Shown here in pieces: positions 307 through 31,730 of a DNA stretch of 64,000 nt. Each line of letters opens with the position of its first letter. The first letter of the stretch is position 1. The DNA lies in assembly GCA_014904845.1 (NCBI GenBank), contig MU119238.1:276218-340217 (forward strand), given 5' to 3'. The DNA comes from Acephala macrosclerotiorum. Taxonomy: Eukaryota > Ascomycota > Leotiomycetes > Helotiales > Mollisiaceae. The notes under the pieces were generated by a model. That model worked only from the letters and a program-made list of their open reading frames with translations. It did not search any database and was not told the origin of the DNA. Position numbers and translations under genes: made by a program.

Positions 307-1226
307 TTAAGACCACAAAATCAACTTCGGTCGTTCCGCCTTATTCTTCGCAGGAATCAACCCCATAAAACTACTCAACGTAAGCCTCGCCCTCTGCTTT
401 CCCCCTTCATCCGACTCCACAGGAAAAACCTGGTGCATATTCCTCGAATTGAAAAAGCACAAATCTCCAGGCTGCGGCTGAATAACCGCTTTCTTCCTTC
501 CCTCAACAAGCTTCTCGTGATACCCATACGAACTTCTATCCCTCCAATTCATTGCATCTTCCGTCCATTGGCAATCGTGGACCTCGGTCTTGCCGCCTTT
601 CATAGGTGTGAAGTATAGGTTGAACACAGCTTGTTTGGTCACCTGATTGATGATCCAGTCTTCGGTTCGGGAGTCGTAAGGTGACCAGTCGCAGTGAATG
701 GGGGTTGAGTCGTTGATTGCCCTGAAGATTCCGGAGAAGTATTTCTTGTTGGGCCCCTCTTGGGCTACTGCTACGTCGTACTCCGGAAGGAGCGATGATA
801 TCCTGTCGATGACGGACTTCCAGATGTTTAAGCCGATTTTTTGAGATAGATTCTCGTGAAGTTGTTCGTGCCTTTTTGTTTCAGCGAAGTATTCTAACTT
901 CTCTGTTTGCTTGTCAGATGATTGTCCTTCTGGGAAAGGACTATGGGCTCACCATTGCCAGTACTTGAACGCTGATTCAGTTGATCGTCTGAAATGGCTT
1001 GATATTCAAACTGAGCAACACCGACTCGAAGCAATGTTGGACCCGGAACATCGAGGTACGGTGATAACTTCGGAGAGAGCTCATCTTCAACTTTCTGAGC
1101 GATGTCACGAGACACGAACTCGGATTCCTTAATGTATGCGACTTTGCCATCTAGAACACCAAGGAGAGACTCTCTCGTGAACGGCGCTGGATCGATATCC
1201 TCCCATTGTGAGACATATGAAGACAT
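307..1226 (-). CDS. 2-oxoglutarate/Fe(II)-dependent oxygenase, two exons
   Basis: Exon 1 is 1226-953 and exon 2 is 902-307. The 50-nt intron starts GTGAGC and ends CAG with a CTGAC branch site 14 nt before the end. The product is about 289 residues. The double-stranded beta-helix signature is clear: an HCD (HxD) iron-binding pair near residues 161-163, the distal iron histidine in SRNMHQV near residue 248, and a basic RARLTL stretch suited to binding the 2-oxoglutarate carboxylate. I start at MSSYVSQW rather than the upstream Met at 1256, because the extra ten residues (MIRHVVFVFN) look non-coding. Enzymes of this family hydroxylate, desaturate or cyclise small molecules and amino acids. Its place beside an NRPS suggests a tailoring or precursor-modifying step, which is inference; the substrate is not visible. 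Confidence 0.85.
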
Positions 1227-2498: not shown

Positions 2499-3354
2499 TA
2501 GTGGATCAAGATGAAAATGTTCCCAAGAGCGAGGTTGACGTGTCACAAACCCACTAACATGGGTCACTCGGAAGCTAGTCCCAGAACAGCTACAGGTGGT
2601 ACAGGGGAAGGAACGACGCGGTGGCTCTCACCTACTCTTTACGGAGGTATAGCGGTCAAGTATTCATACAATAGATACGGGCTTAAACGCCATATATGAT
2701 TTTAATATATTATAACTTTTGCTATACTTAACAAAAAAACTTTATTAAAACAGTAAAATGATTCCTAGGAAGAGCACTATATACTTATGTAGTTTTTATG
2801 TTTTGGAGATGCGTTGTGATTGTGATGCAAAGGGGGCAAAGTTTAGACCCCTGCTAGCGCTATATAAATACTTAGCCGCTCGGTGAACACTAAGCGTTCT
2901 TCGAGGATTCCATGTACTCATCATGTCTCCAACACGGTCACGCCAAGACGCACCATCGCTCAGGGAGCTTTCTTGGCTCCCATCATCATTATGGAAGCTG
3001 CATCAAAGATAACGGGATGAGCCGCCGTCGCGGAGTCAAGGGTCTTAGATGCCGGCCGAGATCTAATCAAACCGATCTCCTTACTGCAGTAAGGAAGCCA
3101 GTGGTGGCATCCTACCTTGCACCTATTTCAGCCTAGCACTGCGACGGCAGTAGAGATGGCATTGGAGTTGGGATTCGGCAGTTAGGGGATGCCCATGCAA
3201 GGCTGACAGATCTGACGTCTTTCTCGACAGGCTGGGGCGGGCAAGTTCAAAGGAGCATACCATTCGCTATGTGCTTCGAAATCAAACTCCATGTAACCTC
3301 AGCATCACGAGAATTTGTCCAGAACAAACGAAACGGTCGTCAACTTCTTCGATC
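2499..3354. other. intergenic / presumed NRPS promoter and 5' region
   Basis: No convincing gene. A TATATAAA lies at 2861-2868. Short open stretches from 2912 onward have no recognisable domain and could be a long 5' leader with upstream ATGs. I looked for the missing N-terminal half of the first condensation domain here and did not find it. Confidence 0.4.
2861..2868 (+). promoter_or_regulatory. possible TATA box upstream of the NRPS gene
   Basis: TATATAAA in a locally GC-normal stretch, about 490 bp before the chosen NRPS start. The distance is long, so it would imply a long 5' UTR or an undetected first exon. Confidence 0.3.
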
Positions 3355-6300
3355 ATGTCACAGATCACACTCTCACCAGACCTGGAATACTGGACGAAAC
3401 GTCTGCGTGACAAAGAGCAATGCCTCTTTCCAATTCTCGACGATGGACTCACAAGGGCAGGAGAGGAGATAGAAAGTATCGATGTCAAGGCCCCACAATT
3501 GGAAGAACTCTTGGAATTCTGTCAAGCCTATGAGTTGAGAATATCTACGGTGTTCCAGGCAGCATGGGGACTCGTCCTACGGAGTTATACGGGAACCGAC
3601 GAAGTTATATTCGGATATCAGGACGACCATTCGAAGTCTTTGCCATGTCACGTGAATCTCGTCCGAGAGAGTGGCCTTCAGCATGCTTTGAATGCCATTG
3701 AGACATCTTATGCGCGGGATGCGAGTCACCGAGGAGTTCGAAGGAGGGATCTCGAATCAGCTTTGAAATTGAGTGAGGAGGAGCTCTTCAACACTAAAGT
3801 CTGTTCCCGAGATGGCACAACAAACGGTGATGAAACAGCTCAAAATCACGATGAGCAAGGAGAACTAGATGACGAGGACGCAGTGGTTTCTTCTCCCATT
3901 ACAGTCGAGATCTTCAGAGATCTGACTTCAAGATATTTACGCATTCATCTGAGATATCAAGTCTCCCATCTTTCCAACGGTCAGGCGGCAAATGTTGCCA
4001 GCGCTTTGGAAAGAGCATTGATATGCGTCATCACTGGGACACATCAAACTGTTGGGGAGCAGCATCTTTTCAGCGAGTACCACCGACGTCAGGTTGATGA
4101 TTGGAATCAGCTCAGACCTGAAAGCCAGAACATGACTTTTCACGAGGCAATTTCGATTCAAGTTCGAGCCCAACCTGATGCTTCCGCAATTGATGCATGG
4201 GATGAGAATTTAACCTATCGCGAGCTGGACAACCTGTCATCCACCCTAGCTCGACATCTAGTACAGCTAGGTGTGAATAGTGGCATGAAAATTCCCCTCG
4301 TCTTTGAGAAGTCAGCGTGGTGGGTTGTTGCCTTGTTATCAGTGTCGAAATCGGGAGCGGCGTTTGTCCCTGTGGATGCTTCGCAGCCTATTCTGCGGTT
4401 AAAAGAGATCATGGATGATGTTAAACCTTCCCTGCTGCTATCATCAGTCCAGTACGCAGAATTGCTAGCAGATTGTGCGGAAACAACTGTGGTGGTTTCT
4501 CGTTCAACCTTAGAAACACTTTGGACACGGTCAGCTATCTTGCCCGAGTTACCGAAAGTGAAGCATACCAACGCGGCATATGTAATGTATACCAGTGGCA
4601 GTACGGGACGTCCGAAAGGTGCGGTACTTCAACACGGAGGTTACCTTTCTGCCCTGCTCTGTTGGACAGAAGGTACAAATTTGGTCCCAGGCCAGCGAGC
4701 TCTACAATCTTCATCTTACGCTTGGTCCGTTTCTATCATTGAAGTAATCAGTGTACTTTGGCATGGGGCATGTTTGTGTGTTCCCTCGGACTATCAAAAA
4801 CAAAACGCACTTACGGAAGTTTTCGAAGATATGCACATTACGTGGGCCATCTTGTCCCCATCCATTGTCAAGACGATCGAGCGAGAAAGAGTTCGTTACT
4901 TGGAAAGCTTAATTCTGTGCGGAGAGCCGGTAGCCAAAGAAGTCGTGACAAGATGGGCCTCAGAACAGACAAAAGTGTGGGTTGGATGGGCAGCTACTGA
5001 ATGTCTCGCCCTTGCGAGACCTGACAACTTTACAGCGGATTCTAATGTGCAAAATCTTGGGCCATGTAAGGGTATTTGCAGAGTCGTTGAGGTTGGCAAT
5101 CATGAGCGTCAGGTGCCTATTGGGGCCGTCGGCGAGGTTGTGACACATGCCCCATGGATAGCAGACGGCTACCTGAATGATCCTGAGCGCACAGCTGCTA
5201 CATTCTTAGATCGGCTAGACTGGCTAGATGGCCGTCCTTCAAGCTACGGCTCTCGGTGGTATAAAGTCGGAGATCTCGTTCGCCAGAATTCGGATGGAAG
5301 TCTGATGTTAGCGGGCCGGGGTGACAATATGGTTAAGATCAGGGGCCAACGTGTTCGCTCTACCCATCAACAACTGACTATGATATGCTAACGTGTTCTA
5401 GTTCGACATGTCTGAAGTTGAGAGGAATCTTGGAACAGACAGTCAAATCCGGAACTCTTTGCCAATTCTTCCCAAGACAGGAATTTGCAAGCACCGCCTG
5501 GTCGCCGCCGTCTCACTTCGCCAATTCACCACCGTTGCAAATGAGGGAAGCGATTCAATTGTGCTTCTGAAAGGTTCGGAGTTGAAAGATGCGGCATCGT
5601 GGGTCTCCAAATTCAGGGATGATCTGGCACGTCGAATGCCGTCCTACATGATCCCGAGTCTCTGGGTCATGCTGAAATCATTCCCGCTTACGATCACGGG
5701 TAAAATCGATCGGGTGTCGTTGAAGAAGTTCATTGAAAAGATGAATGTTGAGACCTTCGAGAGCATTGCTACACTTGGCGTAGAAAGCGAGCCTCCCATC
5801 ACAACTCTAGAGAAGCGATTGGCAAAGGTTTGGGCCGATGTTCTCAATCTTCCTGTACACAAAGTTGGACGAAACACACCATTCATTACTCTTGGCGGCG
5901 ATAGTATACTAGCTATGATCATTGGGGCTCGATGCAACAAGGACAGCCTTCGAATTCGAGCTCAGGATATTCTGAGGTATGGCACTATTGCTGAACTTGC
6001 ATCGAAAGCAAGCCTAGAAGAAGAAGAGCAGACAACACAGACTGCTACGCTAGCCAAACAATATGTGACTTTGCATAAGAAGATCAGGGAGACACTGCAC
6101 CAGGTGATCCCACGCAAAGAGGATGTCGAGGATGCATACCCCGCGTCACCAATGCAAACCGGCATGTTACTGAGCAAAGCGAGGTTGACTGGAGACTACA
6201 ATACCGCTAGCATATACGAGATCCTTCCATCAAGGAAGAACCACTTTCCAAATATTGAGAAACTGCAGAATGCTTGGCAACAAGTCGTTAATCGCCATTC

Positions 6301-9300
6301 CATTCTGAGGACCTTCTTTGTAGAAAGCGTATCTCAGAGTGGCTCATTTGACCAGGTTGTCTTACGAAATTACGATGTTTCACAAACGACCACGGTTTGG
6401 ACAGGAATTCAAACTACTTCCGTCGGCGATGTCATCCGGGCCTTTGAAGAAAGCCCGTCCAGGAGCTACCCAGACTTCCAGCCTCCTCACAACTTCACCA
6501 TTCTTGAGACTGCGACGGGTGGAGTATTTTGTAGACTGAACGCCGAGCACACGCTTGTGGATGGGATGTCTTTGGCAGTGATCGTGCGAGATTTACGCCT
6601 AGCATACGACGAAAAGCTTCCACTTCAGCCAGTCCCCCTGTATTCATCTTACATCACCTCACTTCAGCAAGTGGTTTGCAGCATTGACAATAGATATTGG
6701 AAATCATATTTGAAAGATATGCACCCATGTATCTTTCCAACATTGTCATACAGTCTTTCAAGAGAACCTCTCAAAGCTGAGTCACGAGCCATCACAGTCG
6801 ACATCAACAATGCTCATCACCTATTGAAGTTCTGCCAAAGCCAGGATATCACTCTGTCAGCGCTCTTTAGGACGATCTGGGGTCTCATCCTTCGCTCATA
6901 CACCGGTTCCGACGAAGTATGCTTCGGCTACATTACTTCGGGACGCGATCTTCCTATTGCTGGCATTGAGGAGATTGTTGGAACCTTCATCAACATGCTC
7001 GTTTGTCGAATGAATCTGTCAGAGATGAGGTTGGTCAAGGACATTATTGCAACGGCGAAATCAGATTATCTGAACAGTTTACCCCATCAGCACGCGTCTT
7101 TGGCTCAAATTCAACACGTTCTCGGTCTTTATGGTCAGCAGCTCTTCAACACCTCGATGACGATCCTCAAACAAGTACCGCTGGATTCTGGAGAAAGTCC
7201 AAGTATCACTTTTAACAACATCCATGAATGGTCACCCAATGAATATGACCTTGATGTGCAGGTGTGGGTATCTAGCACCAACGTAACGATGGAGCTTTGG
7301 TATCGCACAGAAGCAATATCAAACGAACATGCCCATAACAGTGCGTGAAATTCTGCCCTTTGATTGAGGAGATATTCAGAGCCGAGCTCCTCGCAGTAAT
7401 GCGAACTCGGCTCCTTAGCTCCTCGACTCCCAAATCATACTTTAGGCCCCATACTGATCTATCTATAGTCGCATCAACATTCAGCCAAGCCATCGACACC
7501 ATCACTGATGACTTCGATCAGAGAGTTGGACAGCTGGATCTATTCAGTCACCATCATCGCCGGCAGGTTTGGGACTGGAATGCCAGATATCCAAAAAGTA
7601 TCGATGTCTGTTTGCACGACCTCGTCTCTCAACACGCAGATACACGAGCCAAGGAAATGGCAATCACCTCCTGGGATCGCGACTTCACCTACAAACAACT
7701 AGAAGAGCACTCAAATCGACTGGCTCACTACTTAGTATCTCTCGGCGTGGGTCCAGAAACACACATGCTTCTGTGCTTTGAGAAGTCTGCCATAGCAATA
7801 GTGGCAATGTTGGGTGTTTTGAAGGCTGGCGGTGCCTGCGTTTCCATTGACCCAACTCATCCTACACAGCGACTACAACGCATCATCGCCGATACTCGAC
7901 CACTTTGCTGTCTTGTTTCCAAGTTGCATAAAGGGCTTTTCGACGCGCAGGGTCTCAAGGGACTTGTGAAGCATGTCGTCACTGTGCACGAATCACTCTT
8001 CGAATCTAACAGGCTCCCTGAGTCGAAGAGGAAGCCATGTCCAAGTGTCACTGCAAAGAATGCGGCTTTCATCCTTTTCACATCCGGATCTACGGGCACT
8101 CCAAAGGGTATAGTCCATGAGCACCGCACAGTCGCAAGCTCTTTGCATCACCATGGAATTGCTATGAATATTGGTGTTGATTCAAGAACACTACAATTCT
8201 CAGCTTTTGTCTTCGATGTTAGCATCACAGAAATCTTCATGGCCCTGACACGTGGTGGTGTCCTTTGTATCCCTTCCGAACACGAACGTATGAACAACCT
8301 GGAGTCTGCAATTACACGAATGGAAGCCAACTGGGCTCATCTTACGCCGACTGTTGCGTCGCTACTGGATCCGGCCAAAGTCCCGACCTTGAAGCACATG
8401 GCTCTCGCCGGTGAGCCTCTCAAGAAAGTCAATGTCACTGCATGGGCTCCACGCCTTGAGCTGGTGAACTTGTACGGGCCTGCTGAGTGCTGCCTTGCCA
8501 CAACCTTGCGCGTTGGACTAGTCGCGGAAGATAGGCCAGACAATATCGGTCGATCAGTGGGACTTCTGGTGTGGATCGTAAATTTTTCCAATACCGATCG
8601 CCTTGTTCCAGTGGGCGGTGTCGGTGAGCTGCTTCTCGAGGGGCCCAATGTAGCCAGAGAGTACTTGAGAGACAGAGAAAGGACCCTTCAATCTTTCATC
8701 GAAAATCCGGCCTGGCTAGGAGACGAGAAAACTACCCCGCCTCGAAGGTTCTATCGAAGTGGTGATCTAGCAAGGTACAATGGCGATGGCTCAATCCAGA
8801 TCCTCGGAAGAATTGATACTCAAGTCAAGCTTCATGGACAGAGGGTAGAAATGGGAGAAATAGAATACCAGGCTAAAGTCAACTTAACACCACACAACTT
8901 GGTCAATATGGCGGTGGTATATGCGAAAGGCGACCATCCTGGTGGCGGCTTGCTTGTGGCGTTCTTGGAATTCGAGGAAAAGGCAAAGGAAGTGGACGAG
9001 GATCAGTTGATGCTCTCGATATCCTCGCGTCTGAATAACATCCTCGTTAAGCTAGACTCTTATCTAGTTGAGGCCGTACCTTCGTATATGGTTCCCTCGA
9101 TTTACGTTCCGCTGAATTCGATGCCACTTTTGACAGCGGGAAAGATCGATCGTGGAAAGCTAGTCAGTATCGTCAAGCGATTCTCTCCAGAAGAAGTCTC
9201 CCTTTACTCTTTATCCGAATTCCAAGCTGAGAAGGGGCAACCAACAACTAGGATGGAATTGACACTTCAGAAGCTTTGGGCGCAAGTTCTCGCTATTGAT

Positions 9301-12300
9301 GAGAAGAATATTGGAGTCGATGACAACTTTTTTCGTTTAGGAGGAGATTCTGTGGTTGCAATGAAGTTGTCTGCAGCCGGCAGAGAAGCCGGCATCACCA
9401 TCACAGTCGCGAACATTTTCCAGAACTCCAAGCTCTCCGACATGGCCGCGATAGCCAGACCCTTCAGCGAGCGCACACTACACGAACTCGAGTCACAATA
9501 TGGAATATCAAAGGCCTCGGTGTCCGCCGTGTACCCTGCGACGCCTCTTCAAGAAGGCATGATGCTTCTCTCGAGTAGGCAGTCAAACGCGTACACTGTG
9601 CAATACGTGCTGCCATTACCCAGTCACATCGACATCCCGAGGTTTAAGCTTACGTGGATCTTGCTTTACAAGGAGCATCCCATTCTTCGGACTCGAATAA
9701 TCAATGTTGAGAAGACGATAAGCTCGATGCAAGTTGTTGTGGACGAAGACCTGTCTTGGCTTACGGCAAGATCGTTGCGGAAGTACCTCAAAGATGATCA
9801 ATCCGCTCCAACTGAGTACGGAAAACCTTTGGCGCGGTTTGCGTTAGTCGAGGATGATGACAAAGACTACTTTGTCCTCACAGCCCATCATTCTATCTTC
9901 GACAAATACTCACTCGAGATGATGTTCTCCGAGGCGGAGAGACTTTACCGATCCCTCATAGCAGACGAGAAGCCTTTATTTGCCACGCTATCGCTGACGT
10001 ATGAATCATTCGCAACAGATGTCTTCAACATGGATGTATTTAAGGCAGGAACGTTCTGGAAAGACCAGTTTTCTGACTTGTCGTTCTCAAATTTCCCAAA
10101 ACTACCTATTGGCCACCAACCGTCCGCCACGGAGGCTCTAAGACATTTCGTCCCATGTTCGATTTCCTCCGAGCAACATTTCTCAACCCAGACGATAATC
10201 CGTGCAGCTTGGGCATTGCTTCTTGCTCAGCACTCAGATTCGCATGACAATGTTGTATTTGGCATGACTTTAGATGGTCGCCAGTCAGGTCTTGAAAGTG
10301 TCGTTGGTCCTACCCTGGTCACAGTGCCAATCAAAACATCCATAAAACTCCAGACGACAGTGGGACATTTCCTGGACGATATTATGCAGCACATGAAGGA
10401 TATCGAGCAGTTCCAACACTTTGGACTACAGAACATCAAAGCTCTCAGCCCCGACACAGCATACGCCTGTGACTTCCAAACTCTACTTGCAATTCATCCG
10501 GTTCAAACCGACGATGCGAGACAAAGTCTTTTCTCCGAGGATTTCCTTGCCTTTGAAGCGCCTCCAGCGTACCTGCTTCAGCTAGAATGTCAACCGACAT
10601 CTAGTGGATTCCATGTGAAAGCAAAGTATGATCCGATAACCACAGCTGGCCTTCAAATGCGAAGGCTTCTAGATCAATTCGAGCATGTCGTCAGCCAGTT
10701 GCTACACCACGACCCTACATTGTCTATCGGTGAAATCGATTTCTGTAGCCCTCAAGACGCTCAGGACATCAAACAATGGAATCGAGATATGCCCCCTCGT
10801 TTGAACAAATGCGTTCACGATGTTATCTTCAGCCATGACCCCGAAAGTATGGCAGTATGCTCCTGGGACGGAGACTTCACCTATCGCCAGCTTGACGAGT
10901 TATCAACTAAGCTTGCATACCGTCTCCGGACAGATTTTGGAGTTGGACCAGAATCACTCGTGCCTTTGAGCTTGGTGAAATCAACGTGGGCTGTGGTAGC
11001 AATGATGGCCGTACTGAAGGCGGGAGGCGCCTACGTCCCTATGGACCCGTCACATCCTGCTTCTCGACTCCAAGAAATCGTTGATGCTTCGAAGGCATCT
11101 CTAATTCTTTGTTCGTCGCAGCATGAGACTCTTGCTCGGAGCCTGGCGGAGAATGTGCTAGTTGTCAACCAGAAGACCATCGATATAGTCAGACCTCATG
11201 AAGATCCTGTGGATACTATCGTTGGGCCAGACAATACTTGCTATGTCATCTTCACGAGTGGAAGTACAGGTACGCCGAAAGGAGTCGTCATAGAGCATGG
11301 GGGATTCAGCACTGCAGCTGCCGAGCACGGCAAACGTCTTGATCTCAACGCGCATTCCCGGGTCATCCATTTTTCGTCGTATGCCTTCGAAGCATGCATT
11401 TTGGAAATTTTGACAACACTCTTTAATGGAGGCTGTGTCTGCGTAGCACCAGAGTCTGAACGCTTGGAAGATATCGCAAAGGCGATGAGAGATATGCATA
11501 TCAACTGGGCTTTCTTCACGCCCTCGTTCATTCGAACAATCCGCCCTGACCAAGTTCCGGATCTCAAGACATTGGTGTTGGGTGGCGAAGCTCTAGGAGC
11601 CGACAATATCGATGTCTGGGCTGACAAAGTCCATTTGATCAACGGCTATGGACCATCGGAGACTTGCGTCTTCTCCGTCACGAATGAGAAAGTCCGTCGT
11701 GGAGATGCGCCAGATTTGATCGGTAGCAGCATTGGAGGAGCGTGTTGGATTGTCAACCCCGAGGACCACAGTAAACTTGTCCCAGTTGGTGCCGTGGGTG
11801 AACTATTAATAGAAGGTTATACACTCGCAAGAGGGTATCTCAACGACCCACAAAAGACCTCAGAGGTCTTCATCGAAAAATCTAAGCTAATATCCCTAAC
11901 AACCTCGGTAAACGGCAAGGCTCAGAATGGAATTAACGCCAATGGTCATGCGAACGGATTTACCAATGGAACAGCAAATGGCAATGGCAATGCGAACAGC
12001 CATTCGGTCAACGGACACTCTCCTAAGACGATGATGTACAAGACGGGAGACCTTGTCCGTTACAACACTGCTCCTGGCGCAGAAGGGTCAATTAGATTCG
12101 TGGGACGCAAGGACACTCAAGTCAAAGTCCGCGGTCAGAGAATGGAGCTTCAAGACGTAGAATACCATCTCAAGTCGAATCTCAAGAATATTCGACACGT
12201 GGCTGTAGAGCAGGTCAACCTGACTGGTCGCGAAGGCCGTTTTCTGGCCGCATTTTTCTCCTTAGAAGATCAGGCAGCCCCACCAGGATCGACAATAGGT

Positions 12301-15300
12301 GAATTTCCATTGCCAATGTCCGAGAATCTCAAACGAACTATCACCGCAGCTGAAAATTTCCTCGATCAGACATTGCCGAGCTACATGATCCCGATTCTAT
12401 ACGTTCCTCTAATTCGTATACCTCTGCTCTCTTCGGGGAAGACGAACAGACGAGAGCTCCATCAAATAGCTTTGAAATTCTCCCAGACAGAGATCTCTCA
12501 GTATACACTGGTCGATGAGCAGAAGCGCTCGCCCCGGTCGCAGAGAGAAATCCAACTATCTGAGCTGTGGGCCAGTATCCTGCAAACCAGTGAAAACGCA
12601 GCAATTGGGTTGGACGATAGCTTCTTCCGACTTGGAGGCGATAGCATTGGAGCAATGAAACTCACGACACTTGCTCGTGAGCACAAGATTTTGCTTAATG
12701 TGGCGACAGTATTCAATAATCCAAAACTTGAAGATATGGCTGCGGCGACTCTAAACTTGAAAGAAGAGGATGACACGTTACTAGAGCCTTTTGCAATGCT
12801 GCCCAAGGCAGAGAATGTCGAGGCGATCTTGGACATGATCAGCAGAGACTACAGTATCTTCCCAGGCGCGATCGAAAATGTCTATCCCACTGGCCCATTG
12901 CAAGAAGGTCTCATGCTCCTTTCCATCAAACAACCAGGCGCCTACATGTCACAGATCACGCTCTCCCTCCAGGATAAAGTGGATCTTGAGCGCTTTAAAT
13001 GGGCATGGCAGGAAACTGCTGAACGGAATGCAATTCTTCGGACTCGATTCGCTCACACGGGTTCTAGCTCCATTCAGTTTGTGCTGAAGGAAGACATCAA
13101 ATGGGCTCACGCCTCTGATCTCCGAATATATTTGACTGAAGACAAGGACAGAAGAATGAACTATGGAGATCCTCTTGTTCGGTATGCGATTATCGATGCC
13201 GGATATGGCGACCGTCACTTCGTCCTTACAGCTCATCACTCTCTTTACGACGGCTGGTCATTGATGTTGATCATGGAGGATTTCAACATGATGTATACTG
13301 GAGAGATCATAAAGCCTGCTGCGCCACCGTATGCCGGATTCATCAAGCACCTGTCAGATATTGACCTCGATGCCGCCAAACCGTTCTGGCAATCTCAATT
13401 CGCTGGGAAGTCTCTGGCGAGCTATCCTGAACCGCGCACGGCCTCTCAAGCGCCAGTAGAGACGCAGATCTTCCAATTCACTAGCATCGAACGCCCTCCA
13501 GGAACGGACATTACTCTGTCTACGATCATACGCGCTGCGTGGGGTCTACTTGTGGCAAGATATGCGGATACGCAGGATGTCTTCTTCGGCGCCACACTCA
13601 TGGGTCGCAATGCTTCCTTGCCGAACATCGAACGGATGACTGGACCAACAATCACAACGCTGCCAATCTGTGTGTCCATCGATGCCTCTGATACTGTCAA
13701 CAGCTATCTTCAACGTGTGCAAAATCAAGGAACGGATATGATACCGTTCGAGCACACTGGTCTCCAGAATATCAAATCGTTTGGCAAAGAGGCAGAGCAA
13801 GCCTGCAACTTCCAAAATCTGCTTGTCATCCAGCCTGAAGGATCAGAAGATCTCAATAGCGAGGTCTGGAAAGAGAAAGCCCTGTTTGCGAAAGGAGAAA
13901 TGGTGACCATGACCTATGCTTTGATCGTTGAGTGTAGGCTCTACAGAGACAAAGTGAGGATCACGGCCCAGTACCGAGAGCATATCACTCCAACTCGACA
14001 GATGAAGAGAATGCTAGACCAATTTGCAGAAGTTATGCAACAGCTCAACAATGTTGCTTCGGCAGAGCAATTGGTTGGTGATGTCCAGCTACTCAGCGAA
14101 CAAGACAGACAAGAAATTATCGAATGGAATACGGAAGCTCCAGACAATACTCCACCTAATGATTGTATTCACGATGTCATCCAAAGGAAGGTATCTGAGC
14201 AGCCACAAGCACCAGCCATCGAATCATGGGATGCAAGCTTCACTTATGCCGAGCTTGACAATGCGTCAACCAAATTGGCATTCTATCTCGCTTCATTGGG
14301 TATTGGTCCTCGTTCCTACGTGCCGCTCTGCTTCGATAAGTCAGCCTGGACAATTGTTGCTATTCTCGCAATACTGAAAGCTGGTGGAGCTTATCTTTCA
14401 CTGGACCCCAAACATCCTAAGAGTAGGAAAGATCACATCATTCGTGATGTCCAGGCAAAGATCATTCTCACGAGCTCGCAATACAAAGAACTATTTGACC
14501 CATCTACTCACAAAGTTGTCGCCATCGATCAAGCAAGCATCGGGAAGCTTCGAATACCAAAAAATGCTACTCTCGTCCAAGGACAATCTACAGATGCAGC
14601 TTTTGTAGTGTTCAGTGAGTTTAACGTTTTCCCTTATGCAGAGATTTGATGAAAGAACTAACCATAATCAGCTTCCGGATCTACTGGAGTCCCGAAAGGA
14701 ATTGTAATGGAGCACGGTTCATTTGTCAGCAGTGCCAGGTCGCATTCGAAAGCTCTCAGTATCACTTCGAATTCTCGCGTCATGCAATTTGCAGCTTATA
14801 CTTACGATGTCAGCATGGGCGAGATTCTCACAACCTTGATGCAAGGTGGATGCGTATGCGTACCGTCGGAGGAAGAGCGAATGAGCAATTTGGCAGCTGC
14901 GGTTAACAAGCTGAACGTGGACTGGATGTTCTTGACTCCGACCGTTGCTGCTTTCTTTAAACCGAGTGATATGCCGGGGTTGGAAACCCTTGTCCTCGGA
15001 GGAGAGCACGCAACGGAGGAAAATATCAAAACTTGGGCGGAGCATGTGTACTTGATCAACTCATATGGTAAATCGTCGTTGTCAAGTCCTGGAGCAGGCA
15101 TTAGCTAACTTTGACAGGACCTGCTGAAACCGCAATTGTAAGATTATATCACTTTACGAATAGGCATTCTCGACGTAAGAAAAATTGCTAATCCGTATTT
15201 TTAGTGGTGTGCATGTGCCCCAGGTCTGAACCCGACAGCAGATCCGGCGTGCTTCGGAAAGCCTGTTGGTGCCTCTCTATGGATTGTCGATGCCAATGAT

Positions 15301-17847
15301 CCCGACAAACTTGCTCCCATCGGAACAGTCGGCGAGCTTGTCGTTGAAGGCCCCACTCTGGCAAGGGAATACCTCAATGATACAAAAAAGACAGCGGCGG
15401 CATTCATCCAGAATCCTAAATGGTCAGCTGAGCGCTCCGGAAAAACGAGACGAATGTACAGAACCGGCGATCTCGTTCGGTATGGTCCATCTGGCAACCT
15501 ATTATTCGTCGGACGCCGGGACCTTCAGACCAAGATCCATGGGCAACGTATCGAAATTCTGGAGATTGAACATCAATTTATGAGGCTCAGCCCGCCAGAT
15601 TGGTTCCCAACAGTCGATATTCTTCGCTTTACTGAAGCCAGACGCGACATTGCTCTGTGTGCGTTTGTTCACATCAGAAATGGAGACCACGGACCCGCGA
15701 CCGAAAATATCTTGCCCATGACGGATGAACTGAGCGAGAAGCTCAGTCTGTTAAGATCACAGATGGAGCAGCTACTACCATCTCACATGATACCAATAGT
15801 GTACATCCCTTTCCGGGACGTTCCATTGACCGCTGGAGGCAAGATTGACAGAGGTACTCTGAGACACCTTGGGGAGGCTTTGACAGAGCAACAACTTCTA
15901 CCTTATATGCTGAGCAACCAAGCATTGCGGTTGCCCTCCACTGATATTGAGCGTAGATTACAAACATTGTGGGCGAGAGTTCTCAACATCTCAGCCGCGG
16001 CCATCGGAGCTGACTCTAATTTCCTTCGTATGGGGGGTGACAGTGTTGCGTCGATGAAGCTGTCTGCTGCAGCTCGAGAGATGGGACTGGTGCTCACTAT
16101 GAAAACGGTCTTCACTTCACCCAGACTGGATGATATGAGCCGAGCTGTACAAGTGATCTCGGCTCATAGCGAAATCAAGCCATACACCAATTTCTCCACC
16201 CTTAGCACCCACGATGTGCCCAAGTTCATCCAGGACGTCATACGCCCCAATATTGCAAGCAAAAAGGGAGATATCGAAGATATTCTTTCGGGCACGGACT
16301 ATCAGCGATGGACACTGGGATGCGGCCAGCTAAAGACTCGAGGCTACAACAATTACTTCATCTTCTACCTAAAAGGTAATGTGGATGTGTCTCGACTACA
16401 AACAGCGTGCCAGAATTTGGTCGATCGCCATCCAGTACTCCGCACAGTCTTCGTCGCCCATAAAGACGAGCTCTATCAAGTTGTATTGAAACACGTCGTT
16501 CCAGAGTTTGCATGCCAAGCCTACGATGACTCCGATCTTCCAATATCGATTGTGGAAAGGGACATGGTACGTGCTGCGGAACTGGGCAGCCTTAGTGTTC
16601 GTTTTTTGCTCGTAGATGAAGGGCTAGAAGGGCATCGATTGTTCATGAGAGCTTCCCACTCCCAGTATGATGGTATTTCCTTGCCAATCATTGTTAGGGA
16701 CCTGAAAGCAGCATACCTTGGACAACCGCTCGAGAGCAGTCTACCATACCATCGCTTCATCGCTGGGACACGACAAACAATGAGGAAATCCCAAGCTGAG
16801 AAATTCTGGTTAGGCCACCTCGAAGGGTCAGCGATGACGCACGTCGTTGATCATCAGAAGCCAACATTTGCCAATGTGGTTAACAAGTCGCTCAAGAGGA
16901 CACTCCCCATCCCTCACACAAGCAAGAATGGCATCACATTTGCGACGATCGTCAAAGCTGCTTGGTCTTTGGTGCTGTCCCATCTCAGCGCCAACGCCGA
17001 TGTAGTCTTTGGCCAGATTACCACGGGCAGAAATGCTCCTATCCGAGGCATCGACGAGATTGTAGGGCCATGTATGAATCTCGTCCCAGTGCGAGTCAAG
17101 CTTGACTCGATCGCCACATATCTTGACCTTCTGCAGCAAGTTCAAACCCAGCACCTCGACATGTTACCTTACGAATCGCTCGGGCTCCAGCATATAATTG
17201 ATAAGTGCAGCTCCTGGCCCAAATGGACACGATTCAGCTCTATCTTGCAGCATACAAATTTCAATGTTGGCATGGATGCCACGGATATGTGGGGCGACTT
17301 GGAGATGCATCTTGGCAATTTCACACCCAGTCATGACGTCTCTGACATCTGGATCTGGACTGGTCCTACTGAGGATGGATTCTATGTCGACTTCACCTAT
17401 TCCGAGGCGACGTTACCCCAGTCGCTTGCCGAGGAAATGGCTGACATGCTCTGCGCACATATCAAGAAGATTTCTGAAAATGCAATGTCCCCTATCGCAT
17501 CCGTACTCGCAAAACTTGAGCCGAAATTGCCTGTGTCCGTCGATTATATCGATGAAAATGAGTCAGTCATGAACGACGCTACAACTTCGGACGACGCCGA
17601 GAAAGCGAAAGAGGTGGTTCTGCAAGCCTGGAAGTCTGTTCTCGGCGATGATATCGATGACAGTCTGCCGCATGAAGTCACTGATCACTCGCCTTTCTAT
17701 GAGCTACGCGGAGACCTGCTGGCAGCTGCTCAACTGTCGATGGCTTTCGCAAAACGAGGTTATGAGATCTCGCCTGAAGAGATCATTACACATCCGACGA
17801 TTCATCGCCAATCTGCATTGATTTCTTTGAAGATGCAAGCCATCTAG
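3355..17847 (+). CDS. four-module nonribosomal peptide synthetase
   Basis: Six exons: 3355-5352, 5402-7340, 7469-14614, 14672-15067, 15118-15137 and 15205-17847, about 4,713 residues. Every junction keeps phase and restores a core NRPS motif. Order: C-terminal half of a condensation domain (1-240); A1 (270-720); T1 (GGDS near 830); C2 (EHTLVDG near 1047); A2; T2 (GGDS near 1936); C3 (HHSIFDK near 2117); A3 with an Asn/Gly-rich insert near 2792-2830; T3 (GGDS near 3036); C4 (HHSLYDG near 3233); A4; T4 (GGDS near 4110); terminal C5 (SHSQYDG near 4315); degenerate T5 (RGDL near 4668). There are no epimerisation, methylation or thioesterase domains, so C5 would release or cyclise a tetrapeptide, as fungal terminal C domains do. 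The start is uncertain: an in-frame Met also lies at 3271. It sits between an oxygenase, a YCII protein and a broken SDR. Confidence 0.93.
15118..15137 (+). other. 20-nt micro-exon of the NRPS
   Basis: Exon 5 is only 20 nt, between introns 15068-15117 (GT...ACAG) and 15138-15204 (GTAAGA...TTTAG). It supplies the codons for PAETAI, exactly the A5 motif of A4. Skipping it would break the frame. The call rests on perfect restoration of motif and phase. Confidence 0.85.
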
Positions 17848-27400: not shown

Positions 27401-29594
27401 ATGAGAGTAATTTCGTGTGTAACAGAAATGTAGGTAGTGTAAACACCAAAGGGCTTTGACGGGGTGTGACGTACGGAGGTTGAGCGACCTCGCTTGTAAT
27501 CTTAGAACCTGCGAAGAATCTGCGAAGAATCTTCAGGCGAGTTGAATTGCTCCGGTGGATGGTGTGCCTCTGGGATCGCCGGGATGGAAAGTTCTTTTAG
27601 CAGTCTAGAATCTCTGCTGGATCTGGCAGGCAATGCGAGATGGCTTGGTGGCGTCTGGGCCTGTGTGGACATGAAGAAGATACCGCACGTGATTCGCCTC
27701 TTCTTCTGCTTGTGCCAGCTTCCAAGTCGGGAAGAGAATTAAAGCCACAAGAGAAGAGTGGTATCACAGCCATTGAGGAGATCGGTCCACTGCCAAGCTC
27801 TCCCATCTTCTAGCAGACAATTCGGCAAGAACTCCTCAATGTCGGCTCACTTGGGTTTCGTGCCCCGCCCCGAGGATACTGAAGTGATTGCACCTGCCGT
27901 ATCAACAAACAGTCCACAGTAGCTTCAAATCACATCCTCCTAGTTTTCAAAGTCCGAATCTCGAAGAGCGGCAAGAGCCACTGTGGCTCGAGATCTCCAA
28001 GCTCCGAGACTTCAAGACTTCCAATTGTTCTTCTCCGAAGAAAACCCTCTCTCGACGCCAAACACATCCATCTCATGTCTCTAAGATAAGAGCTGATGAG
28101 GGGTCAGACTTACAGTATCTTCACCAAGACCACCTCCTCAATCGTTATCAAGAGAACGGACGACTGCAGAAACACGGCCAGGTACCCGGTCATTGGCCGG
28201 CATACCCCAACATCTCATGCAGTGCCAAAAGTTCATGCAGGCGCGAAAGTGTTGGGGGCATATTCACCTGCAAGTATGTGAATTCTCTGCTCTTGTATAT
28301 TGAGTGTATGTTGCTGCAGCATGCATGTGCTGAGCTCTGTTACATTTTCCAGATTGAGGGACCCGAACCGATTCGGCTCGGATCCCACTCTTTCGAGATA
28401 TGTCCGTCCGAGGATTTTGCTCGCATGTGTTTCCTCACACTCGCAGTCGCTCCTCAGACGGGAAAATTGCGAGTCTTTGATTTCAGCTGACAAGGCGTGA
28501 CTTGCACGAAGTCATGCAGGTGTGCCTTTCATTTCTCTGAAGTCGTGTAGCAACCTCGTTCAATTCCGCCAACACACAGCTGAGACATTGGAACCAGCCT
28601 CCCTTTTCACGCGAGACACGCCTCATTCGTTGTATCTGCATACTTCAGCAATTGACACGTGCAAAACAGTGGCTGAGGCTGGGATTATTAATTCTCGTAT
28701 TGTCCCATTTGCAAGTCCTCGAAGTTTGAGAAGGCTCGATTTGGACTGAGATTCTGCCAGCGCAAGAACTCAACTAGGACATTGAGCTCGTGCTATTGCA
28801 TGGTGGGGCATTCTAGTTATCTAGAACTTTGGCTTTCGATTTATCAGATGCGGAGATATGTTCCTTGACCCCCAGTGTCTCAATATGTTGAAGATATTTA
28901 CCAACTCTTGCGGACAATCTCGTCAAGCAATTCGAGTGCTAAAATGAACGCCTTCTGGGTCTCGAAGGTTAGCAACGAACACAATCATACACTCATTAAG
29001 TGAAAGACGCAATCGGACACACCTGTACAGTGTCTTCACCGGGCTCCAGTTGCGCGCAACAGCACCCGGAGTTAGAACTCAGCATAGTGCATAGGCCGAA
29101 GCTTGCGAAGCTGGAGGCGTTGGATACATGCAACGCTTCGTGTTCATCAATGAGCAAGTGCTATACCATTCACATGATCAAATGCCCGAGTAGTCAAGAA
29201 CCTTGTCCTCGACTTTAGGAGGTGCTTCTGTTCCGGAATACTGTTCGGCACTATAGCGTCAGCAAGAAAATCAGTCGACGAAAAGCAAATGAAGCAAAAG
29301 TGGTTCCTCCAGAGAAGGCTCTTTCAAGATCCAAAGAGAATTTGAACAAAATGAGAGATCATGAAACTTCATGTCAATGAATCAACCTCACCCAGCTTCA
29401 CGACCAAATCAGCCATTGGTCCTTGCTCCTCATTTTTTCATTTCCTCAAGCCCAAAAAAGCCTGCCGCTCCCCTCTAGGTTCGAAATACTTTTGAGCATC
29501 ACTTTCATGGTGGGTGACGAAAACACTCGGTAAAAAAAGCCCCAACCACAACTCCACCACAAGCCCCAAAAACAACAAAAAAGAAGGATTCTTA
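24499..29594. other. long gene-poor stretch
   Basis: Many short overlapping frames on both strands but none with a recognisable domain. The longest, 27888-28490 (+, 200 codons), is Ser/His/Gln-rich and unsupported. It contains (TTTGAC)n hexamers near 25262-25315, a 9-bp minisatellite at 25719-25806, three 10-bp near-repeats (GGAGCAAGTC) near 25038-25082, and a duplicated TGCGAAGAATC near 27508-27532. A small gene with several tiny exons could be missed by eye. Confidence 0.4.
25719..25806. repeat. 9-bp minisatellite (CGTTCTCTT)n, nearly ten copies
   Basis: Perfect head-to-tail CGTTCTCTT units with one variant copy (CGTTCTTTT) near the right end, directly after a T-rich tract (TTTATTTTTATTTTTA). 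On the minus strand this gives an artificial RRERRE run. Confidence 0.92.
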
Positions 29595-29786
29595 TGCGTT
29601 CGCCGGGAATCTATTTCATATTAGTTAAACGTCTTCATTTTCAGAATTTGGGAGGTCTAACCGAACCCGGGGCCCATCGATGTTGAAGATATATCTCGTT
29701 GGCAACTATTTCCGGATCAGTTTTGCGATTTGATATTGGAGTATAGGGGCACAAACCGATGGATTTTACCACTAAACCACAAACGC
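29595..29786 (-). tRNA. tRNA-Gly(GCC) with three intervening sequences
   Basis: Exonic parts fold into a full cloverleaf of 71 nt. Acceptor GCGTTTG (29786-29780) pairs CGAACGC (29602-29596, one G-U). D arm is GTTT-AGTGGTA-AAAT. Anticodon stem CATCG (29761-29757) pairs CGATG (29679-29675) around loop TTGCCA+T. T stem CCGGG pairs CCCGG around TTCG+ATT. The discriminator is A. Three inserts must be removed. 29756-29706 (51 nt) starts GTTTGT, ends AATAG and has CTGAT, between position 31 and the loop. 29699-29681 (19 nt) is at the canonical 37/38 site. 29661-29611 (51 nt) starts GTTAGA, ends AATAG and has CTAAT, inside the T loop. A TTTTTT Pol III terminator lies about 15 nt downstream. The complementary pairing makes a chance match very unlikely; whether it is expressed is unknown. 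Confidence 0.85.
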
Positions 29787-31730
29787 TTTTGATTGGTTGA
29801 TGACGAAGAAATTGGTGTTTAAATATATACATGCGATGGAAATGCGGTGAGAAAATTCGTGTGAAGGGTTTGCTGCCGTAACCCGAGGTGGTGGGGCCGG
29901 GGTTCTTCCAGCCACGTGCGGGTGACCTGGCCTTGTAGTGTAGATATATGGACTTGAGGTGAGAAGGAACAATGTGAGAAATTCATGGGTGTGTGGTAGG
30001 AGCAGCAAAATGAGAGTTGAGATCGAGGACAAATGTCAGCAAAAGCGTTGGAAACTTACCCCGCCATGGTATGTTGATATAGACGCTGGGTAAAATTGGT
30101 TGCAAGTTTTTCAGTCTTATGATCTAAGTCTTCACGCACTTTGAAATTTTAATACGCTTGTGAAGGGGGAAATGCAACAGAGGACCCCTGCGACTGTGGT
30201 TGAGCGAGGTCATTCACGCATCTGTCACCACCGCAGAGGCACCAGAGGGTTAAATTTTCATCGGGGTCGGAGGAGGATCAATTCAACCCCACCACTTCCA
30301 AATATTTGACTGCCACACATTTAAAAGGCCTTTAATGGTAATACTTCATTTGGAAGAGTGCATGAACAACGTAAAATACTAACGTTCACATCAATAATCA
30401 ACTTAGCATCCACGTGGTGGACGAATAGCTTGGTACTCGTTGAAAGAAGCCCGACATTTTGGCAAGCTTCAACTGACTGGGCATGATATTTGAAATGACT
30501 CCGTGACACATCAATGTCAAGTTTGTCAGAAAGAAATTGGATGCCGAGTATTTGCCTTCTCCCACGAACTGAGTCAATCACTAAGAAGGTGGAACGAAAA
30601 AATGAGCATTTTGGTAGTAAGTTTGACATGCATTACTCGACTGACCTCGTCAAACAATGTGCTCCCGATTTCAAATATGCAGAAGGGCAGCGACGACTAA
30701 GATGGAAGCTGATACGGATATTTCACAGTACAGAAATTCCGAACGCCCTAAGTCCAAAATCGATCTCCTCTCCCACAAACGCAGCTCCAAGGGCTCCAAT
30801 CTTCCAGTGTGTCGTCCTCACCTTCATCGCTGCCACCATGAGACCAGTGTTAATCTCAATTGCCAAGAAAAGAGATGATAGCTGCACTGCTTGTCGTCTC
30901 TAACAATAGGGACAATTTGGTGCCTCGGAGAGGCGACCCCGCTGCCACGAAGGAAGCTTGGTCGCCCAAGTTTCCCGATAAGTTCGTTTCCAATCGTAGA
31001 ATGGAGCTCGACTTGCTAATATTCGCGAGAAGTGAACTGTCGTCAAAGCATGAACAAGATGTCGGCGTGATACTTGAACATCTAGGGAGGACATGCGTCT
31101 CCACATACGTCGAGATTGTCCCGGTTCCTCCAAATGTTGCAATTTCTCCACACAGGTCACAAGTTGTCTCGAGAATAGCAGAAGCTTGGGATGGTAGATT
31201 CGATGATAAAGTATAAGGACCTGGGGATGTCGTTCAGTGTTGAAGTGTCGAGGCTGCTGTGGCCGAGCATCGAGGGATCAACAAAAACGGAAAGATAGAA
31301 TTTTGAACAGCGTCAGATATCACACCTCGCATTCGTATGATTGAGTCCTCCTAGTAATAATTGGGCTTGGTCAGGCGTCTGTTATGAGCGAGAGGTAAAA
31401 TCTCTTGTTACGGATCTTTTCGTAGTCTTTGACTTCTGGGTTTGCTCCTGTGTCAACTAACTCCAGCTTAAGCAAACCAATCCATCTAGCCCACTCTCTG
31501 TCGGGGTTCATGGGCTTCGAGCTAAGTAGGCAGACTTAGTATGACTTGTGTTGCTCATTCCATGATTCCCAAGTGTCTCAGATCGCATAGTAACACAATG
31601 GACAAACGGACTTCTTCTCGAATGGCTTCATCGGTGAGCCACTTTAACTCAAAGAAATATTGACGATACATGTAAGAGTTGGGTGTGCGAAGAATAGACT
31701 CATTGCGGGTCGGGCAGTTTTGCATTGACT
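29787..31730. other. intergenic, no supported gene
   Basis: Apart from the TATA-like element next to the tRNA, only short frames without domains (for example 30514-30903 and 30860-31216, +) are present. Nothing recognised. Confidence 0.4.
29818..29829 (-). promoter_or_regulatory. TATA-like element upstream of the tRNA-Gly gene
   Basis: On the minus strand TATATATTTAAA lies about 32-43 bp before the tRNA 5' end. Upstream TATA elements support Pol III transcription of tRNA genes in some fungi such as fission yeast. It could matter here because the internal B box is split by an insert. Confidence 0.4.

Follow-up and report, generated by a model that had tools for sequence, protein, structure and literature searches.

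Can a nuclear transfer RNA (tRNA) gene be interrupted by introns of the spliceosomal kind, in addition to the ordinary intron that is cut by the tRNA endonuclease? The question is raised by positions 29595-29786 of the DNA analysed here, a window of 64,000 nucleotides (nt) from contig MU119238.1 of the Acephala macrosclerotiorum assembly GCA_014904845.1, where an earlier note had proposed a tRNA-Gly gene with two spliceosomal introns and one endonuclease intron. The proposal is supported by the sequence of the locus, by at least 19 further split tRNA genes in the same genome and by our failure to find an intact tRNA-Gly(GCC) gene in pattern scans of that genome. It is very probable, judging from splice signals, exon conservation and promoter elements, that the locus is a functional tRNA-Gly(GCC) gene transcribed by RNA polymerase III (Pol III) which contains two 51-nt U2-type spliceosomal introns and an ordinary 19-nt intron at position 37/38, and that most of the other genes are built likewise.

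The gene is read on the minus strand from 29786 to 29595 and comprises exons of 30, 6, 19 and 16 nt (71 nt together) separated by inserts of 51, 19 and 51 nt. Its features are as follows (L numbers denote loci, the window gene being L038).

29814-29829, minus strand: upstream TATA-like element TATATATTTAAACACC, starting at -43, with 3 mismatches to TATANATTTRAATAAG.
29757-29786, minus strand: exon 1, tRNA positions 1-31, with the acceptor 5' strand, the D arm and the 5' strand of the anticodon stem; identical in L039, L040 and L042.
29706-29756, minus strand: spliceosomal-type intron of 51 nt at 31/32, GTTTGT...CTGAT...AAATAG; an insert lies at the equal position in 6/6 Gly(GCC) paralogues found.
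29700-29705, minus strand: exon 2, 6 nt (TTGCCA), positions 32-37, with the anticodon GCC.
29681-29699, minus strand: canonical 37/38 intron of 19 nt, tRNA-endonuclease type; 19-23 nt across the 6 paralogues.
29662-29680, minus strand: exon 3, 19 nt, from position 38 to the T loop (TTCG).
29611-29661, minus strand: spliceosomal-type intron of 51 nt in the T loop (57/58), splitting the B box, GTTAGA...CTAAT...AAATAG; also in L039, L041 and L042, not in L040 and L043.
29595-29610, minus strand: exon 4, 16 nt, with the 3' part of the T arm, the acceptor 3' strand and the discriminator A.
29577-29582, minus strand: T6 run beyond the 3' end of the tRNA, a terminator of the Pol III type.

Removal of the three inserts, from which the earlier note had expected a complete cloverleaf, leaves a 71-nt sequence with a full cloverleaf, called tRNA-Gly(gcc) by ARAGORN; the same program reported no gene in the whole window, and none at the unspliced locus with introns of up to 200 nt allowed. 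Rfam likewise gave no match over the window at gathering scores. The placement of the inserts agrees with what had been described: only the 19-nt piece occupies the canonical 37/38 site, and the two 51-nt inserts, noted at the border of anticodon stem and loop and in the T loop, sit at 31/32 and 57/58. Their GT starts, CTGAT or CTAAT motifs and TAG ends were confirmed on the minus strand, with the branch A 11 nt before the 3' end in the 31/32 intron and 10 nt before it in the T-loop intron. The gene has no uninterrupted internal B box in its DNA, the T-loop intron dividing it, and it has both a terminator (T6, 29582-29577) and an upstream element (the TATA-like sequence at -43) of the Pol III type.

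The search for other tRNA genes with GT-AG inserts, which the earlier note had recommended, yielded at least 19 more in the genome, so that the comparison covers 32 long inserts in at least 20 tRNA genes, which represent nine types. Boundaries, splice signals, empty sites and cloverleaf pairing can all be read directly in the DNA. The inserts measure 47-59 nt (mean 51.3), and their boundaries are set by the cloverleaf or by an intact paralogue. GT-AG ends are present in 31/32 inserts and a G at +5 also in 31/32, including the GTTTGT and GTTAGA sites of the window gene, while GT, CTRAY (5-30 nt from the end) and AG occur jointly in 28/32. Introns in actin-family messenger RNA (mRNA) genes elsewhere in the genome carry the same signals, for example a 53-nt GTAAGT...CTAAC...CAG intron (by eye, few introns). 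Among 2,000,000 random segments of the window with matched lengths and the locus removed, the fraction with GT...CTRAY...AG was 0.000198. All signals were present in at least one gene at 15/17 distinct insert sites (16 in tRNA and 1 in U6 RNA genes; 14/16 before the Phe genes were added), which gives a log10 P of about -46 even at three times the random rate. The tripling is meant to cover boundary sliding and allows only roughly for the fact that some boundaries were picked among alternatives with the splice rule in mind; the site list was compiled by hand. Chance was therefore rejected as the origin of the 51-nt inserts, as were group I and group II introns: no Rfam covariance model, those families included, matched between 29300 and 30100 up to E = 10, and 51 nt is too short for introns of either group.

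The split genes came from several searches. With the tRNA model RF00005, 37 matches were obtained among the best 63 of 2302 candidates scored, namely 33 contiguous tRNA genes, three genes with GT-AG inserts (Trp L034, Lys(UUU) L035 and Glu(UUC) L036) and one degenerate copy, L037. ARAGORN reports an intron of 5-25 nt in 13/33 contiguous genes, its labels for intron-bearing genes being partly wrong. For Phialocephala subalpina, 91 tRNA genes are reported (PMC5148876). L037 was rejected as a split gene; it is a degenerate inverted copy of the tRNA-Thr(AGU) gene L003, about 350 nt from it (G000:C276:28356-28844). A pattern for the D arm gave 19 matches against 23 in the control, so most of them are due to chance; the six tRNA-like ones are the split Phe gene L055, four Lys(CUU) genes and L051, which was discarded as a degenerate Met-like copy without a GT-AG intron. 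The four Lys(CUU) genes L052, L053, L054 and L056 each have two GT-AG introns in the T arm, flanking a 9-nt exon. With a pattern aimed at introns that precede the T arm, 5 matches were obtained against 3 in the control, two of them being the contiguous tRNAs L007 and L001. The other three, Thr(AGU) L072, Glu(UUC) L073 and Ala(AGC) L074, each carry two long inserts and one at 37/38; a reading of L074 as tRNA-Pro was rejected on account of its G3:U70 pair (by eye) and the ARAGORN call Ala(agc). A scan with the Phe 3' half found four loci, L055, L138, L139 and the 3' fragment L140, with zero control matches. All four Lys(CUU) and all three full-length Phe genes found are interrupted. One further gene, L106, taken from a promoter sample described below, was read by eye as Leu(CAG).

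When 17 of these genes were spliced in silico, ARAGORN called a tRNA in 17/17, with the expected anticodon in 16/17, and in the same genes unspliced it found nothing in 13 and made a wrong call in 4. After boundary correction or addition of genes, Ala L074 (agc), Trp L034 (cca) and Phe L138 and L139 (gaa) were called. Left out of the count of 20 were L045 (a 5' fragment), L140 (a 3' fragment), L130 (acceptor mismatches) and the RNA genes L103 and L121. L130 (G000:C20:88994-89303) is tRNA-like, with two D-arm GT-AG introns around a 10-nt exon and two T:T mismatches in the acceptor stem (by eye). L103 and L121 are paralogous RNA genes (GGCACC...CCTGGGTTCAAATCCCTTGG) with an apparent GTAAGC...CTAAC...AG intron.

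Empty sites fix several boundaries independently of the splice signals. Spliced Thr L072 is letter-identical to the intact L003 over 72 nt, and spliced Trp L034, whose intron begins GTATGT, equals the intact L016 over 71 nt (no match was obtained in L015). The three Phe genes differ in their introns, which follow the D stem in L055, lie in the D loop in L138 and occupy both sites in L139, and after splicing they give one identical 37-nt 5' part. The Gly gene L040, which has no T-loop intron, gives the same spliced sequence as L038 and L039.

The family of the window gene was delineated by a genome scan with its conserved 5' part TGGTTTAGTGGTAAAATC, allowing up to 2 mismatches, which hit 8 places against 2 for the reversed pattern. 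Six of the 8 are tRNA-Gly(GCC) genes, and in each of them a GT-AG insert occupies 31/32 and a short one 37/38; the T loop is interrupted in L038, L039, L041 and L042 and uninterrupted in L040 and L043. The other two were set aside, L044 as a chance-like match and L045 as a 5' fragment only. A genome scan for the contiguous 31/32 junction GTGGTAAAATNNANCGTTGCCA, again with up to 2 mismatches, returned one 2-mismatch match without a GCC anticodon and no intact copy; with patterns of this stringency a strongly diverged intact copy could escape. As far as these patterns reach, the genome appears to hold no intact gene for the essential tRNA-Gly(GCC). An intact set elsewhere, part of a condition under which the earlier note would have given up its proposal, was thus not found, and 6/6 genes carry the 31/32 intron. 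Mean pairwise identity among the Gly(GCC) paralogues is 91% in exons, 52% in the 31/32 introns and 67% in the T-loop introns; for Lys the exons reach 99%, and the four intron sets compared lie at 52-67%. In the acceptor and anticodon stems, whose strands flank the introns, compensatory changes occur in 5/21 pairs (reached by 8/500 shuffles), 98.8% of cells are paired and the covariation score was reached by 0/500 shuffles, in a set with only 4 distinct sequences.

How such genes might be transcribed is suggested by their upstream regions. The element TATANATTTRAATAAG, with up to 3 mismatches, was found upstream of 16/19 split and 31/33 contiguous tRNA genes, its start lying roughly 30 to 64 nt before the mature 5' end; the corresponding frequency in random stretches was 3.2%. 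It lies at -28 in 3/4 U6 genes and, with up to 3 mismatches, at -28/-29 on the gene strand in 17/20 5S genes (20 of the 31 5S matches were examined). Being common to split and contiguous genes, it is a general Pol III feature and no marker of split genes. T runs also follow other split tRNA genes. We infer that an upstream TATA element of this strength would ease the need for internal boxes; a published parallel is Cyanidioschyzon merolae, for which an upstream TATA element and TFIIIC-independent transcription are proposed (PMC3978253). The TFIIIC subunit Tau95 (PF09734) gave one match in the present genome (G000:C37:140837-141286, on the contig to which the window belongs), and the B-block domain PF04182 gave none in an exon-by-exon search which also matched 4/14 prokaryote controls and may have been limited in sensitivity.

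Other Pol III genes were inspected as well. The U6 gene L047 (G000:C261:61667-61765) has a 52-nt GTAAGT...CTAAT...CAG intron between GCACTAAGGAT and GACACGC, so the spliceosome of this fungus may already handle a Pol III transcript; the copy L046 (C37:155049-155152) has no intron, and L048 and L049 are diverged. The 5S genes showed no interruption, 31/31 matches spanning 1-120 among the best 47 of 2922 candidates, where interrupted genes would score low. A genome scan with the promoter pattern gave 1085 matches against 585 for the reversed control and is consequently no census of Pol III genes. From it a sample of 40 of the first 44 places among the 100 matches listed was read, three known tRNA genes and one overlapping place being left out. 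In this sample L104, L110, L114, L117, L122 and L126 look tRNA-like. At least two apparent RNA gene families (by eye) follow the Pol III TATA element and have T runs: L095, L101, L107, L111, L120, L125, L127, L129, L131 and L132, and L108, L109, L128 and L133.

These features suggest a sequence of events in which the polymerase, the excision at the RNA level and the order of steps are all predictions. Pol III, placed by the upstream TATA element, would make a precursor that terminates in the T run. Guided by GT(N)NG as 5' site, CTRAY as branch point and AG as 3' site, the spliceosome would take out both 51-nt introns first, because the anticodon stem and T arm otherwise cannot form, and the refolded pre-tRNA would be cut at 37/38 by the tRNA endonuclease and ligated. 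Inserts at 31/32 and in the T arm break the domain that this endonuclease measures. With only the 37/38 insert kept (14/17 tested genes have one), the acceptor stem was predicted to be mostly closed and several minimum-energy folds were not cloverleaves, modelling which lends weak support to that order. On the genome scale, a large share of the tRNA set is likely to be spliceosome-dependent: introns would have come to occupy many positions in tRNA genes transcribed by Pol III (Gly, Lys, Phe, Thr, Ala, Glu, Leu and Trp), the A- and B-box regions among them, and a strong upstream TATA element directing Pol III would have made them tolerable. Genes that also bear a 37/38 intron would need two splicing machines in order, which would tie translation capacity to the spliceosome. 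As all Gly(GCC), Lys(CUU) and full-length Phe genes found are interrupted, the fungus could not live without such splicing, provided that the assembly and the pattern scans are complete.

Other explanations have to be weighed against this one. The spliceosome might act on capped, long precursors made by RNA polymerase II (Pol II), given that its recruitment normally depends on the cap and Pol II and that introns split the B box and, in part of the genes, also the D-arm/A-box region; the T runs directly downstream of the genes, the TATA element common to split and contiguous tRNA, 5S and U6 genes and the intron-bearing U6 gene of the same genome argue for Pol III instead, and we regard Pol II precursors as unlikely. 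The loci could also be tRNA pseudogenes or relics with insertions, the real tRNAs coming from other genes. Fragments such as L045 and L140, the defects of L073 and L130, and L040 and L041 without their TATA element would be expected of such relics. The exons are nevertheless conserved with compensatory changes, splice signals are kept in nearly all inserts whose bodies have diverged, and no Gly(GCC) gene intact at 31/32 and no intact Lys(CUU) or Phe gene turned up in the pattern scans, which makes loci that are mere relics very improbable.

Excision by the tRNA splicing endonuclease alone would require a relaxed enzyme that cuts the inserts at bulge-helix-bulge (BHB) motifs, like the non-canonical introns of archaea and Cyanidioschyzon, and introns in the D, T and anticodon arms are indeed known (PMC3978253). 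Ordinary 37/38 introns are present in the genome as well, but 28/32 inserts keep GT, CTRAY and AG, whereas outside these signals the intron sequences of paralogues have diverged. BHB introns require no GT-AG ends, no G at +5 and no branch-point motif, and we give this alternative very little credence indeed. An assembly artefact or chimeric insertions, which the use of a single assembly might invite, can hardly be reconciled with 20 genes at separate places, 31/32 inserts with GT...AG ends and paralogues that agree on the insert position, and its probability is close to negligible.

Several observations weigh against spliceosomal splicing of Pol III tRNA precursors. The predicted excision of the inserts from RNA and the transcription by Pol III rest on DNA sequence, and every comparison was made within one assembly (69.66 Mb, 778 contigs) by searches that scored the best candidates or used few-mismatch patterns, which may miss divergent intact copies. 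Exons of 9-10 nt between two spliceosomal introns, in uncapped transcripts, would be unusual spliceosome substrates. The D-loop insert of L073 has GTAAGT and CTGAT but ends in TTG, which may reflect decay of the copy, an error of sequencing or splicing at a non-AG site, three inserts have no CTRAY (the second of L056, that of L106 and the second of L139), and the 5' sites GTTTGT and GTCAGA, found in 3 inserts each, are weak. Spliced L106 is labelled SeC(tca) by ARAGORN against Leu(CAG) by eye. As L042 has a broken T-stem pair and L040 and L041 are without an upstream TATA element, some copies may be poor or dead.

Elsewhere in the window, nonribosomal peptide synthetase open reading frames with condensation, AMP-binding and carrier domains occupy 3154-17847 (plus strand) and 310-948 (minus strand), adjoined by an open reading frame that matches WelO5-type halogenase/2-oxoglutarate (2OG) oxygenase. 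The window also encodes a CutC protein whose identity is 78% with the Phialocephala subalpina protein, 74% with that of a Mollisiaceae sp. and 70% with that of Mollisia scopiformis, so that this one protein most likely places the genome in the Mollisiaceae (Helotiales).

Introns of tRNA are cut by the tRNA endonuclease or, in bacteria and organelles, are self-splicing. No precedent for spliceosomal or GT-AG introns in tRNA was found in searches of open-access papers, most subscription papers being outside their scope. The inserts described here would constitute a categorically new class of tRNA intron, present as a genome-wide feature, of which the components, spliceosomal introns and a spliceosome acting on a Pol III transcript, are already known from U6. 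If this holds, a further class of tRNA introns would be spliceosome-dependent, and the spliceosome would be able to act on Pol III transcripts that are short and structured and whose exons measure 9-10 nt. The invasion of genes by introns, the need of splicing for Pol II, the dispensability of internal Pol III boxes and the order of two splicing systems on one RNA would become testable questions. Where genomes of this kind are annotated with incomplete tRNA sets, spliceosomal introns may also be the reason, the tools tried here being ARAGORN and Rfam.

With the canonical 37/38 introns of nuclear tRNA genes, the locus shares its 19-nt insert, which is of the same kind, and differs in the 51-nt inserts, which lie elsewhere in the cloverleaf and carry spliceosomal signals. 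An mRNA-type intron in the U6 small nuclear RNA (snRNA) gene of fission yeast has been described (PMC10484740). That case resembles the present one as a U2-type spliceosomal intron in a Pol III transcript, and L047 is a U6 copy of this genome with such an intron, whereas the tRNAs here are unrelated substrates with up to two such introns each, which also need endonuclease splicing. Spliceosomal introns reportedly occur in ascomycete ribosomal RNA (rRNA) genes and in a gene for U2 snRNA, likewise as GT-AG introns in fungal non-coding structured RNA. Those RNAs are Pol I or Pol II transcripts; here, by comparison, the introns lie in tRNA and enclose exons of 9-10 nt. In Cyanidioschyzon merolae, 34/43 tRNA genes are disrupted, with introns in the D, T and anticodon arms and with permuted tRNAs (PMC3978253). 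The likeness to this species and to archaea lies in the many disrupted tRNA genes and in the arms affected. Their introns are of the BHB type and cut by the tRNA endonuclease, whereas those of A. macrosclerotiorum have GT-AG ends and a branch point, in a genome where Tau95 is present.
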